A stretch of DNA of 50,302 nucleotides, from the NCBI GenBank assembly GCA_018645405.1, contig JABGOQ010000068.1, forward strand, positions 1 to 50,302, read 5' to 3'. The position numbers and the translations under genes were made by a program. Below the pieces are notes generated by a model. The model worked only from the letters and a program-made list of their open reading frames with translations. It ran no database searches and was not told the DNA's origin. The stretch is from Anaerolineae bacterium. Lineage in GTDB: Bacteria; Chloroflexota; Anaerolineae; Anaerolineales; Villigracilaceae. This document shows, one piece after another, positions 2,610-10,768 of this stretch. The stretch's first letter is position 1; every line of letters starts with the position of its first letter.

Positions 2610-4577
2610 ATGAAAAAAACTGATTACCTTTTTAAGAACGCCATTGTCCTGACAATGGACAAAGACCTTAAACAATACGATCCCGGCGCAGTAGCTGTGA
2701 GTGGCGATAGTATCGTCGCAGTTGGTGCAGAGGACGAAATTCTTAACGCCTATGATGCAGCCGAAGTAATTGATTGCGGCGGCAAAGTGCTAATGCCCGG
2801 TTTGGTGAACGCGCACACCCACGTCCCGATGACGCTGCTGCGCGGTCTCGCCGACGACCTTCGGCTGGATGTTTGGCTAATGGGCTATATGATGCCCGTT
2901 GAGCGTGAGTTCGTCACCCCCGAGTTTGTTCGTTTGGGCACAAAGTTGGCTTGCGCCGAGCTAATTCGCAGTGGTGTAACAGCCTTTGCCGACATGTATT
3001 ATTTTGAAGACGATGTTGCCGAAGCCACCGCCGAAGCAGGGCTACGCGCACTCTGTGGGCAATCGGTCATGAAATTCCCCGCCCCAGATGCCCCATCTTA
3101 TGAAGACGCTCTCGTCTACGCACGCAACTTCATCGAACGCTGGAAAGACCACCCCTTGATCGTCCCGGCAGTAGCTCCCCACGCCCCATATACCTGCACG
3201 CCAGAAATCCTGAAAGCCTGCGCCGAATTAGCAAATGAATTTGATGTCCCCCTCCATATCCATCTCGCAGAAACATCCTTTGAAGTCGAAAATATGCGCG
3301 AAGCTGAGGGCATTCCTGTCATCCCTTATGTCAAAAAGCATCACCTCTTCGAGGCCAAAGTCCTCGCCGCCCATTGTGTTCATATTGACGTAGGAGAAAT
3401 TCGCACACTCTCAAACCTTGGTGCTGGCGTGGCACATAATCCCTCATCCAACATGAAGTTAGCTTCGGGCGTTGCGCCTGTCCAGAAAATGATCGATGAA
3501 AATGTCCCTGTCGGGATCGGGACAGATGGCCCCGCCTCGAATAACGATCTCGATATGTTCGAAGAGATCCGCTTAGCCGCATTTATCGCGAAGGGATTTA
3601 GTGGGGACCCCACCTCTATCCCGGCTGCTACCGCGCTGACAATGGGAACCCGCCTGGGAGCGGAAGCGATGCACATCGGCAATTTGACTGGCTCATTGCA
3701 AGTGGGCAAACGTGCCGACCTGATCTTGATCGACATCTCCAAATCCCATAATGCCCCCCATTTCCGCCGCGACCCAAATAATATCTACGTTCAACTTGTT
3801 TACGCCGCAAAATCAACCGACGTGACCGACGTAATGGTCAACGGTGCCTTCGTAATGCGTGAGAAAAATCTGCTTACGCTAGATGAAGCGGATCTGATGG
3901 AAAAAGCACAAGTCTACGCTGAAAAGATCGATGCCTTCCTGCTCGAACGGGAACAATCGCTCTTCTCGAAACTGGTCGCTTTAGGCGGCTCGTCGGAGGA
4001 AGAATCCTTCGAGGTGCAGACCAAGGTCAAGGTGACCGAGCAATTTGACGTCGAAGCTGCGCTCGCGGCTTCTAATCTAGAAATCATCCGCTCACGTCGT
4101 TATCGTGAATATGATCTCTACTTCTCCTTTGATGATCCATCACAAGGACGCTTGCGCTATCGCGAGGATGAATTCATCGACGACGAAGGCAACGTGGAAC
4201 ACGTCCGCGCTCGCCTGACGCTAATTGGGCAAGCAAGAAAAGAAGAATTTAAAGACGATGTCCTTCTCTCACGGAGCCGCTATCTTGCACCGGCCACAAA
4301 TTCACGTCGTTTCTACCGCGAATATTTCAAACCGAAAACGGAGCAAACCATCCAGAAAGAACGGATGCGCTGGTTGGTTGAGTTTGAAGGCACAGAATTT
4401 TTCATCAACTTCGACCTCTTCAATAAACCTGATCTTGGCAGATTTCTTGAGATCAAGACACGCACTTGGAGCCGAAAAGATGCCAAACGCAAAGCAAAAA
4501 TGACTTCAGAATTACTCGCACTACTGAACGTGGAAGAAAAAGCGATAATAACCGACGACTATATTGAGCTTGTCTAA
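2610..4577 (+). CDS. MTA/SAH-type deaminase (MtaD-like amidohydrolase) fused to a CYTH domain
   Basis: The 655-residue protein has two parts. Residues 1 to about 455 are an amidohydrolase with the full MtaD/SsnA signature: NAHTHVPMT (metal His 69 and 71), HIHLAET (His 216 and 218), AAHCVHI, NPSSNMKLASG and GTDGPASNNDLDMFEE. That family deaminates 5'-methylthioadenosine or S-adenosylhomocysteine to the inosyl form. From about residue 466 follows a CYTH (triphosphate tunnel) domain: EVQTK at 468-472 matches ExExK with the middle Glu changed to Gln, then RLRYRE, an ERMRW segment and DLGRFLEIK. The start at ATG 2610 has GGAG eight bases upstream; an ATG at 2556 in the same frame lacks one. The CYTH substrate is unknown. 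Confidence 0.88.
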   Translation: MKKTDYLFKNAIVLTMDKDLKQYDPGAVAVSGDSIVAVGAEDEILNAYDAAEVIDCGGKVLMPGLVNAHTHVPMTLLRGLADDLRLDVWLMGYMMPVEREFVTPEFVRLGTKLACAELIRSGVTAFADMYYFEDDVAEATAEAGLRALCGQSVMKFPAPDAPSYEDALVYARNFIERWKDHPLIVPAVAPHAPYTCTPEILKACAELANEFDVPLHIHLAETSFEVENMREAEGIPVIPYVKKHHLFEAKVLAAHCVHIDVGEIRTLSNLGAGVAHNPSSNMKLASGVAPVQKMIDENVPVGIGTDGPASNNDLDMFEEIRLAAFIAKGFSGDPTSIPAATALTMGTRLGAEAMHIGNLTGSLQVGKRADLILIDISKSHNAPHFRRDPNNIYVQLVYAAKSTDVTDVMVNGAFVMREKNLLTLDEADLMEKAQVYAEKIDAFLLEREQSLFSKLVALGGSSEEESFEVQTKVKVTEQFDVEAALAASNLEIIRSRRYREYDLYFSFDDPSQGRLRYREDEFIDDEGNVEHVRARLTLIGQARKEEFKDDVLLSRSRYLAPATNSRRFYREYFKPKTEQTIQKERMRWLVEFEGTEFFINFDLFNKPDLGRFLEIKTRTWSRKDAKRKAKMTSELLALLNVEEKAIITDDYIELV

Positions 4578-7467: not shown

Positions 7468-8601
7468 GTGAGTCAATGGCCCGGAAAATATGTGATTGGT
7501 TTAACTGGAAATATTGCCACAGGAAAAAGCGTGGTTCGCAAAATGCTTGAACACTTAGGCGCCTACAGCATTGACGCCGACGCACTTGCCCACCGCACCA
7601 TGGCAAAAGGTGCACCAGCATACCAGCCCATTGTGGATATTTTTGGCAACTGGATTCTGGGAGAAAACCAGGAAATTGACCGCACCAAACTGGGGCAAGT
7701 TGTCTTCAGCGCGCCAGAGGCAATGCAGAAACTTGAAGAAATCACCCATCCTTTTGTGAGACAAGCCATAGATTTGTTGACCAAACGCTCCAAGCATAAA
7801 GTGGTCGTCATCGAAGCGATCAAGCTCCTCGAGGGCGAGCTCGCATCTTATTGCGATAGTGTCTGGGTTGCAGATGCTCCAGAATCTTTGCAACTTTCTC
7901 GGATAATGAAAAAACGAGGATTAAGTGATGCGGATGCACGCCAACGCATTCAGGCTCAAAACCCACAAAAAGACAAAATAGACGCAGCCGATATTGTGAT
8001 AGACAACTCTGACTCTTTTGAGGAGCTTTGGAAACAGGTCGTTGCTGGTTGGGAGAAAATTGAACTTAGCAGTGTGAAAGACGCCGCTTCAGAAATTGTA
8101 GAAGAAGCAAAAAGCGGTGATTTTGCTGTCAAGCGCGGTCTCCCGAGAGACTCCGAAGCGATTGCTGCGTTGATGACTCGACTTGGCAAGATTGAGATGA
8201 ACTCAAGCGATGTAATGGCAGCTTTTGGAGAAAAAGCCTTCTTCATCCTTAAGTTGGATGAGAAGCTGGTCGGGCTTGCCGGTTGGCAGGTTGAAAACCT
8301 CGTCACCCGCGTTTCTGACCTCTATATTAACGATGGTATTTCAGCAGACGATGGATTAAAAGCCCTCCTTGAAGAAATTGAAAAAGCATCAAATTCTTTG
8401 CAGAGCGAGGCCGCACTCCTTTTCCTTAATTCAGAACTTGCAACGCACGAAAAGACCTGGAAAAACCTCGGCTATGAAAAACGTACATCCCAATCTCTGG
8501 GCGTGCAAGCTTGGGAAGATGCAGCAAATGAAAGGCTCAATGCCGATAGAACGCTCTTTTTCAAACAACTTCGTATGGACCGGGTACTCCGCCCGATTTA
8601 G
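7468..8601 (+). CDS. coaE: Dephospho-CoA kinase with C-terminal GNAT-like domain
   Basis: CoaE phosphorylates dephospho-CoA with ATP, the last step of coenzyme A synthesis. The P-loop is GLTGNIATGKS at residues 11-21, and the DADALAHR, HP and VIEAIKLLE segments fit the kinase, which ends near residue 205, a normal CoaE length. A further 170 residues follow; VKRGLPRDSEAIAALMTRLG, then AFFILKLDEKLVGLAGWQ, look like an acetyltransferase (GNAT) fold with the usual beta-beta core, though the acetyl-CoA loop is not well kept. GTG is the start, with AGGAG seven bases upstream. The fused domain may use or sense the CoA product; that is inference. Confidence 0.92.
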   Translation: MSQWPGKYVIGLTGNIATGKSVVRKMLEHLGAYSIDADALAHRTMAKGAPAYQPIVDIFGNWILGENQEIDRTKLGQVVFSAPEAMQKLEEITHPFVRQAIDLLTKRSKHKVVVIEAIKLLEGELASYCDSVWVADAPESLQLSRIMKKRGLSDADARQRIQAQNPQKDKIDAADIVIDNSDSFEELWKQVVAGWEKIELSSVKDAASEIVEEAKSGDFAVKRGLPRDSEAIAALMTRLGKIEMNSSDVMAAFGEKAFFILKLDEKLVGLAGWQVENLVTRVSDLYINDGISADDGLKALLEEIEKASNSLQSEAALLFLNSELATHEKTWKNLGYEKRTSQSLGVQAWEDAANERLNADRTLFFKQLRMDRVLRPI

Positions 8602-8649: not shown

Positions 8650-9519
8650 GTGACCAATTTTCTCAGCGATATTCTCTTTTTCTTTGAACGACTTGATTGG
8701 CTAAGCGTTGTTGATATTCTCCTCGTTACGTTGATCTTTTTTGCCCTGCTTTATATTCTACGAGATACGCAGGCGATGGCGCTTTTGCGCGGCGTTCTCT
8801 TTTTAGTTGTCTTCATCATTTTTCTTACCAGTTTGCTTAATTTGCCCGCTTTTTCGTGGCTAATTAATACCACTCTCCCCGCACTACTTTTGGCAATTCC
8901 GGTTATCTTTGCCCCAGAAATTCGCCGCACGCTTGAGCGAATTGGACGCGCAGGTGCAATCTACCCGACCAGTAGCCAAAACACAGAAACGAAAATAGAA
9001 GCGATGATTGAGAGCATCATTAGTGCGACAGCGCGCCTCTCTGCTCGTCAACATGGGGCATTGATTGTTTTGCAGCGCCTGGATAACCTTGAAGCCTTTA
9101 TCTCAACAGGTGTGCGGATGGATACCACCATCTCACCTGAAATTTTATTGCAGATTTTTTACCCCAACACCCCTCTTCACGACGGCGCCGTGATCATCTC
9201 GGATTTTGAAATTGCTGCCGCTTCCTGTATTATGCCTCTCTCCTCGAGCGGAATCTTGGCACGCTCCCCCGAACGTGAAATGGGACTTCGACATCGTGCC
9301 GCTCTGGGCACATCCGAGGTGAGCGATTCACTCGCATTAGTAGTCTCGGAAGAAAATGGCGATATTTCCATTGCCCAAAGTGGGCGGATCATTCGTCAAC
9401 TTAGCCCAGAACGATTAAAGAATATCCTCTTGGCTTTTTATCGCCCTACAGGGCTAAATCGCAGTGTAGGAATATTGGAACGTTATCTACCTTTCCTTTT
9501 TAGGCGCAAAGAAGAATAA
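8650..9519 (+). CDS. cdaA: Membrane diadenylate cyclase CdaA
   Basis: CdaA makes c-di-AMP from two ATP at the membrane. Three hydrophobic segments occupy about residues 15-100, followed by a DisA_N cyclase domain with both signature motifs: DGA at 178-180 (in LHDGAVII) and RHR at 214-216 (in GLRHRAALGTSE). The length of 289 residues is typical. The start is a GTG without a clear Shine-Dalgarno. The gene is followed two bases later by a cdaR-like gene, the classic pairing; glmM, the third usual member, is not adjacent, although a phosphohexomutase lies at 31.3 kb. c-di-AMP usually controls potassium and osmolyte transport. Confidence 0.96.
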   Translation: MTNFLSDILFFFERLDWLSVVDILLVTLIFFALLYILRDTQAMALLRGVLFLVVFIIFLTSLLNLPAFSWLINTTLPALLLAIPVIFAPEIRRTLERIGRAGAIYPTSSQNTETKIEAMIESIISATARLSARQHGALIVLQRLDNLEAFISTGVRMDTTISPEILLQIFYPNTPLHDGAVIISDFEIAAASCIMPLSSSGILARSPEREMGLRHRAALGTSEVSDSLALVVSEENGDISIAQSGRIIRQLSPERLKNILLAFYRPTGLNRSVGILERYLPFLFRRKEE

Positions 9520-9520
9520 T

Positions 9521-10768
9521 ATGTTTCGCTGGCTTGGCAAAAATATCGGTACTTTTTTACTCGCGCTCGTTCTCTCGATCGGTGTTTGGGTTGCAGCAGT
9601 TAACGCATCAGACCCAGACGAGGAACTCATCTATCCAGCACCGATCACGCTCGAGGTGGTAGGGCAAGATACTGATCTTCTGATTACAAATATTCATTCG
9701 GAAGAAATCGAGTTAACCCTGCGCGCACCGCGCTCCATTTGGGCACAGCTCACCGCAGATGAAAGTAGCATCCATGCTATTCTCGATCTATCTGGTCTCA
9801 AGGCTGGACAATACTCGCTGGAGCCACAGATTCAGATCGGCATCCAGCCAACACGGATTATTTCTTTCTCACCCGCCTCGATCACTATAATACTGGAAGA
9901 GTTAATTACGCGCAGTTTCCCCATTCAACTAAATCTTGTTGGGGAACCTTCAGTTGGCTATCAAGCTGGCCTCCCCAAGATCAACGTCGACGAAGTAATA
10001 ATTTCTGGCCCAAAATCACTGGTAGAACGTGTTGAATCCGTGCGAACATCCTTTAATTTAGATGAATCCCGAGAGAATATAAGTGAAAATCTCTCGCTAG
10101 AGGCTGTAGACGAAAACAACCAAATTATGCGCGGTGTGAATCTTAATCCGGAAGAGATTGAGTTAGAAATCCCGATCAGTCAGCAAGGCGGCTATCGAGA
10201 TGTGGCAGTCAAGGTAACGGTAACAGGGCAAGTTGCTAACCTCTACCGATTAACAAATATTTCTGTTTTTCCACCGGTTCTAACAATTTATTCTGCTGAT
10301 ACTCAACTGGTCAACGATTTACCCGGTGTTATCGAAACAGAACCACTTGATATTAACGGCATCAACGAAGATTCTTCTACTCGCCTGAAGCCGGTTTTAC
10401 CAGAAAATATCCTCATTGTCGGTGATCAAAGTGTTCTCGTAGAGGTTAGCGTAGAAGCGATTTTAGGGAGCCTGACTATTTCTGAAAAACCCCTTGAAAT
10501 CATCAATCTTGACCCCGCGTTGGCCGCCGAACTTTCATCAGAAACTGTAGATATAATCATCTCTGGGCCACTATCTGAACTGGACACACTCAGTGCCAAC
10601 GATCTACGCGCAGTGATAGACGTAGAAGGGCTTACCAATGGTAGCCACCAGCTCACACCCCTGATTGAGATATTAAACAATGCCATCAAGGTTGAATCCG
10701 TTTTACCCGAAAGCATTGAAATAACCCTAAGCGATGCACCACCCGTAACGCCGACGGCAGAGCCTTAA
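9521..10768 (+). CDS. cdaR: YbbR-domain protein, CdaA regulator
   Basis: A single membrane segment (residues 8-30) anchors an extracytoplasmic part made of about four YbbR repeats of roughly 80-90 residues; recurring elements are a strand ending VxGP (VIISGPKSLVERV, IIISGPLSELDTL) and LPExIxI. CdaR proteins bind CdaA through the membrane and modulate c-di-AMP synthesis, mostly lowering it. The gene begins two bases after cdaA, so translation is probably coupled. The C-terminus is a short Pro/Thr-rich tail (PPVTPTAEP). Length 415 residues, in the usual range. Confidence 0.9.
   Translation: MFRWLGKNIGTFLLALVLSIGVWVAAVNASDPDEELIYPAPITLEVVGQDTDLLITNIHSEEIELTLRAPRSIWAQLTADESSIHAILDLSGLKAGQYSLEPQIQIGIQPTRIISFSPASITIILEELITRSFPIQLNLVGEPSVGYQAGLPKINVDEVIISGPKSLVERVESVRTSFNLDESRENISENLSLEAVDENNQIMRGVNLNPEEIELEIPISQQGGYRDVAVKVTVTGQVANLYRLTNISVFPPVLTIYSADTQLVNDLPGVIETEPLDINGINEDSSTRLKPVLPENILIVGDQSVLVEVSVEAILGSLTISEKPLEIINLDPALAAELSSETVDIIISGPLSELDTLSANDLRAVIDVEGLTNGSHQLTPLIEILNNAIKVESVLPESIEITLSDAPPVTPTAEP

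Follow-up and report, generated by a model that had tools for sequence, protein, structure and literature searches.

A deaminase joined to a CYTH tunnel domain with altered metal-site residues in Chloroflexota, a candidate triphosphate reader

We analysed a 50,302-nucleotide stretch of DNA from an Anaerolineae bacterium (Chloroflexota; GenBank assembly GCA_018645405.1, contig JABGOQ010000068.1, positions 1 to 50,302), called the window below, and within it a gene whose product joins an amidohydrolase to a predicted CYTH, or triphosphate-tunnel, domain. The same open frame contains an upstream in-frame ATG at 2556 as an alternative start; the alignments of relatives begin at the Met of 2610, so the start at 2610 matches the relatives. 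Residue conservation was counted over 131 unique sequences from 152 full-length loci, and the parts of the protein are as follows, with MTA standing for methylthioadenosine and SAH for S-adenosylhomocysteine.

2610..4577, forward strand: fused protein, 655 residues plus stop
2610..3944, forward strand: residues 1-445, amidohydrolase half (MTA/SAH/5'-deoxyadenosine-type deaminase)
2814..2822, forward strand: HxH metal ligands H69 and H71, invariant (131/131)
3180..3182, forward strand: H191, invariant (131/131), His in 8/15 unfused relatives
3261..3272, forward strand: H218 and E221, invariant (131/131)
3372..3374, forward strand: H255, invariant (131/131)
3525..3527, forward strand: D306 of GTDG, invariant (131/131)
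3945..4004, forward strand: linker, residues 446-465, with R447, E448 and K454 fixed in 36/36
4005..4574, forward strand: predicted CYTH / triphosphate-tunnel domain, residues 466-655, from profiles, hhalign and model fold
4011..4025, forward strand: ExQxK (E468, Q470, K472), an altered ExExK, 131/131, aligned to the canonical motif
4155..4169, forward strand: RxR strand, R516-x-R518-E519-D520 (R516 and R518 131/131, E519 130/131, D520 129/131)
4278..4280, forward strand: R557 at the invariant-Glu place of canonical CYTH, 131/131, the least sure of the hhalign placements
4356..4370, forward strand: basic strand, K583-x-R585-x-R587, 131/131
4407..4415, forward strand: N600-x-D602, 131/131
4449..4457, forward strand: E614-x-K616, an altered last ExE with the putative metal-1 Glu kept and the second Glu replaced by Lys, 131/131, roles by motif order (PMC4641920)

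By its sequence the N-terminal half is unambiguously an amidohydrolase. The window protein matched PF01979 at 238.4 bits (cut-off 25), and the HxH...H...E...H...D set of the amidohydrolase superfamily is complete and invariant in all 131 sequences. We take H218 and E221 to be a metal ligand and the general acid/base, and H191 presumably has the substrate-pocket role that it has in TM0936, where we assume that E98 and H191 correspond to substrate contacts. Both are invariant in the fused proteins and are retained in 6 and 8 of 15 unfused relatives, respectively. Only C56 and F106 in this half are specific to fused forms, too few to indicate an interface. The exact family is less sharply defined, as none of the 25 NCBIfam models shown for the window protein reached its curated cut-off, including the equivalogs for MTA/SAH deaminase (NF012037, 305.8 bits against 779 needed) and 5'-deoxyadenosine deaminase (NF005557, 343.4 against 522). 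Known MTA/SAH/adenosine deaminases of the superfamily (4dzh, 4dyk, 4f0r; TM0936, 1p1m) align up to about residue 450 of the fused protein.

Assignment of the C-terminal half as a CYTH domain was weak on the window protein alone but clear for the family. Alone, the C-half matched no Pfam family at E<=1, and TIGR00318 (cyaB) reached E 8.2e-4 over the last 49 residues only (19.3 bits, cut-off 57.95). Across the family's 36 members, 19 matched PF01928 and 29 matched TIGR00318 (E<=1), and the three members tested singly (L141, L142 and L154) each scored above the PF01928 cut-off of 23.2 bits. Alignment of the family against 17 canonical CYTH proteins with hhalign gave a probability of 95.8% and E 7.3e-9, and the eight-stranded CYTH tunnel fold is present in the predicted model. 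Single-sequence and profile searches of the C-half against PDB sequences returned no match up to E 10. A sequence-only reading of this DNA had proposed the fusion of an MtaD-type amidohydrolase with a CYTH-like domain; the motifs it quoted are all present (HTH at 69-71, HIHLAET at 216-222, GTDGPASNNDLDMFEE at 304-319, EVQTK at 468-472, RLRYRE, ERMRW and DLGRFLEIK), and the fusion is borne out by PF01979, the family profiles, hhalign and the model fold. The profile match it expected for residues 456-655 was faint for the single protein and held for the family. The whole-protein two-domain model scored a pLDDT (predicted local distance difference test) of 90.9 and a pTM (predicted template modelling score) of 0.84, and three linker residues are invariant, which would fit a fixed arrangement of the two halves.

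The signatures of two known CYTH activities were absent. Class IV adenylyl cyclases are described by HFxxxxExExK, a small residue where RxR has its first Arg, and ExA (PMC8233210); here residues 462-463 are S-E, R516 is invariant and the last motif is ExK. The W/YxRxR signature given for thiamine triphosphatase in the same source corresponds to Arg at residue 514 of the window protein, with Tyr in 5 of the 131 relatives and the residue not read for 6. The window's genome also encodes a separate canonical CYTH with EIEAK (G000:C62:24486-25076, L137, an 888-aa open frame), so this cell has a CYTH domain besides the fused one. That protein has 729 aa inside the locus, and its long C-terminal part appears CHAD-like by eye.

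The spread of the fusion, which the sequence-only reading had proposed to survey, turned out to be wide. Counting the window's genome, 59 of 60 relatives carry the full fusion, and G017 has its two ends on different contigs. The C-half was matched in 183 of 298 genomes sampled from the class; G166 (E 4.6e-4) and G298 (E 9.3e-4) are near-threshold and may be other CYTH proteins, and short frames among the listed matches occur in G338:C134 (203 aa) and G277 (538 aa). In the phylum sample 62 of 301 genomes matched, 29 of these 62 from outside the class; 61 of the 62 rows lie in frames no shorter than 658 aa, and the remaining row (G473) reaches a contig end. Records of the named strains Longilinea arvoryzae KOME-1 and Leptolinea tardivitalis YMTK-2 hold the fusion, and a peptide-pattern search with the fused protein (P0001) gave 256 loci, the best 80 of which are all titled Chloroflexi/Chloroflexota, Anaerolineae or genera such as Longilinea, Leptolinea and Anaerolinea. 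On plasmids the C-half had no match at E 0.01, and P0001 hit 327 records at E 1e-20, each over less than 80% of the query.

Maximum-likelihood phylogeny of the deaminase half set the 36 fused rows apart as a single group from 15 unfused rows (support 100/99, 200/200 bootstrap trees). The tree was midpoint-rooted and several unfused rows are long-branched, so that a single origin of the fusion is the simplest reading of these sequences rather than a proven one. A de-fused ancestor was not seen in 25 genomes lacking the C-half, of which 16 were drawn from the 115 C-half-negative genomes of the class sample and 9 belong to other classes. An amidohydrolase match was present in 20 of the 25; no row extends beyond residue 457, and the best match by E-value is 43% identical.

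The tunnel residues are strongly conserved and differ from the catalytic pattern. Never varying in the 131 sequences are E468, Q470, K472, D502, Y504, R516, R518, R557, R567, E571, K583, R585, R587, N600, D602, E614, K616, W620 and D624. In the hhalign alignment E468-x-Q470-x-K472 falls on ExExK, R516-x-R518 on RxR, K583-x-R585 on KxR and E614-x-K616 on the last ExE, with Q470 and K616 each on the second Glu of its motif. I539 falls on the lysine of TxKG, and R557 on an invariant Glu, a placement that adjoins gaps. ExExK is thus ExQxK in 131/131, and the last-strand ExE of catalytic triphosphate tunnel metalloenzymes (TTMs), which supplies the metal-1 and metal-2 Glu, keeps E614 and has K616 in 131/131. 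Residues were matched to the roles described for ygiF and other TTMs by order of motifs, not by superposition. In ygiF, metal 1 is bound by Glu-160, a residue described as invariant among TTMs, and metal 2, the proposed activator of the attacking water, by Glu-4, Glu-6 and Glu-162; hydrolysis of inorganic triphosphate (PPPi) was lowered by mutating AtTTM3 Glu-2, Glu-4 or Glu-169, or ygiF Glu-6 or Glu-160 (PMC4641920). By motif order, the fused tunnel would keep the metal-1 glutamate (E614) and would have lost two of the three site-2 ligands. The sequence-only reading had suggested from ExQxK that binding may have replaced cleavage in this domain, an idea that gains support from the invariance of ExQxK and from the ExE to ExK change, which would remove another ligand of the same metal site.

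Known CYTH tunnel proteins such as PH1819 (2een), SaTTM (7ns9), YpCyaB (3n10) and ygiF (5a60) have ExExK and ExE where the fused protein has ExQxK and ExK; unlike them, the fused protein is without the TxKG lysine and is joined to a deaminase. The closest parallels for the tunnel are the Vtc4p core, described as having a basic acidic patch and only site 1 (PMC4641920), and RESC1-RESC2, which is called inactive on the ground that it lacks two of three metal residues (PMC10201420). In both, as in the fused tunnel, metal-2 acidic residues are replaced; Vtc4p acts in polyphosphate synthesis and RESC1-RESC2 in a guide-RNA binding complex, and the cited portions of these sources mention an amidohydrolase partner for neither. 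CYTH-CHAD proteins and plant TTM1/2 (kinase-TTM) resemble the fusion in that CYTH is one module of a larger protein, with a CHAD or phosphoribulokinase-type partner instead of an amidohydrolase (PMC8233210, as cited in part). A literature search limited to open-licence papers, where absence is no proof, found no account of a CYTH-amidohydrolase fusion or a Chloroflexi CYTH-deaminase, and the passages of PMC6537752 and PMC3440374 matching the words searched mentioned neither an amidohydrolase partner nor Chloroflexi.

We give an even chance to the fused protein being a purine-nucleoside deaminase with a built-in triphosphate reader that binds without cutting and whose occupancy modulates the deaminase. 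The N-half would be a metal-dependent amidohydrolase deaminating 5'-substituted adenosines, probably 5'-deoxyadenosine and methylthioadenosine first, with adenosine possible. The C-half tunnel appears to retain the metal-1 glutamate and most triphosphate-binding basic residues, and to have lost the water-activating metal-2 site, so that a triphosphate or metal-triphosphate, for example ATP, PPPi or short polyphosphate, would be bound uncut. Occupancy of the tunnel would then raise or lower deaminase activity via the conserved linker.

Several observations weigh against this reading. In SaTTM the second Glu of ExExK (E7, equivalent to Q470) is described as also contacting metal 1 (PMC8233210), and its replacement may have weakened that site as well. 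The TxKG lysine, which by motif order contacts the substrate in other TTMs, is I539 here, and triphosphate affinity could therefore be poor. The neighbouring genes of the examined fusion loci show no triphosphate link. Finally, AtTTM1/2 are without signature motifs and are yet reported to use pyrophosphate (PMC8233210), so that motif loss is no proof of inactivity. The CYTH half could be a second enzyme whose chemistry has changed, acting with one metal as a pyrophosphatase or phosphotransferase like plant TTM1/2 or the polyphosphate polymerase Vtc4. We regard this as unlikely, although not strikingly so; inspection by eye identified no counterpart of the Vtc4 catalytic lysine, and no neighbourhood gene points to polyphosphate. 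That the CYTH half serves as a scaffold that holds a partner protein or RNA, or the oligomer, with tunnel residues kept for folding or for the partner, also seems to us rather improbable: the invariant positions are triphosphate-binding tunnel positions, which a pure scaffold need not retain. A frame joined by sequencing or assembly error, which the sequence-only reading had named as a possible refutation, found no support and is practically out of the question given the full fusion in 59 of 60 relatives, the class and phylum samples and the named strains.

Which nucleoside the deaminase half uses was approached through the other enzymes encoded in these genomes. Of the 298 class genomes, 279 have AhcY. 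In AhcY, HxTxE or HxTxQ is described as preferring SAH and HxExK as preferring S-inosylhomocysteine (SIH) (PMC10978960), and on this motif-based prediction of preference 19 of 20 AhcY loci carry HxTxE or HxTxQ and 0 carry HxExK, with one (G280) incomplete in the extracted region. Fourteen of those 20 genomes have the fusion, 13 of them with an AhcY motif that was read. With the SAH-preferring form of AhcY common beside the fusion, SAH is unlikely to be the only substrate, and the earlier proposal of SAH as a substrate is weakened as well. A SAH to inosylhomocysteine route (DadD plus SIH hydrolase) as the main role was rejected, since AhcY with the SAH-preferring motif is widespread.

MTA phosphorylase (TIGR01694) scored above cut-off in 50 of 60 relatives and canonical adenosine deaminase (PF00962) did so in 53 of 60. 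Their frequency weakens a sole MTA or adenosine route; both nucleosides are kept as candidates. The MTA phosphorylase residue pattern came from one locus only (L228, TDYDVW), too few to use. 5'-Deoxyadenosine is a by-product of radical S-adenosylmethionine (SAM) enzymes, and it would be the best single guess, a weak one, by elimination in a comparison that leaves MTA nucleosidase out.

The window's genome, listed with 5.07% contamination, holds a classical AhcY at G000:C79:8165-9544 (L171; PF05221 E 1.9e-148, HMTIQ). Nearly all listed class genomes have a shorter, divergent AhcY with far lower scores than L171.

Gene neighbourhood was not informative for the mechanism. The flanked loci compared, 88 in all, were those from L057-L136 and L141-L160 that span 8 kb or more and have a full-length fusion. 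In 57 of them (including L126 and L130) a CinA-like gene, often abutting that of the fusion, lies upstream on the same strand; the name is taken from one representative, L130 (MoCF_biosynth plus CinA_KH). In 28 loci an M14 carboxypeptidase-like gene is additionally upstream. The window locus, examined alongside the 88, has no CinA-like gene upstream. Just upstream of the fusion in the window, 1661-2329 encodes a DUF4332 / helix-hairpin-helix protein. Further along, 7468-8601 encodes CoaE (PF01121, residues 8-184) with about 190 further residues lacking a Pfam match at E 0.001, and 8650-10768 a diadenylate cyclase (DAC, CdaA_N) followed directly by a YbbR-repeat protein, an order that we take to be that of cdaA-cdaR pairs.

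CYTH domains in the cited parts of these papers mostly cut or cyclise triphosphates. Here the fusion is kept across a large part of Chloroflexota, with the tunnel retained and the apparent loss of the water-activating metal site fixed, and naming the protein by its first half alone, as an amidohydrolase, hides the second. A reader role of CYTH domains becomes directly testable in one purified protein. We tentatively propose, as a possibility short of an even chance, that a CYTH subfamily whose acidic patch is fixed neutral-to-basic reads ATP, PPPi or short polyphosphate allosterically, without hydrolysis, and gates deamination of purine nucleosides (SAM by-products) across the phylum. If true, a salvage enzyme would carry a built-in energy or phosphate sensor of a new kind, and the way in which these bacteria couple nucleoside salvage to a triphosphate signal would become visible.
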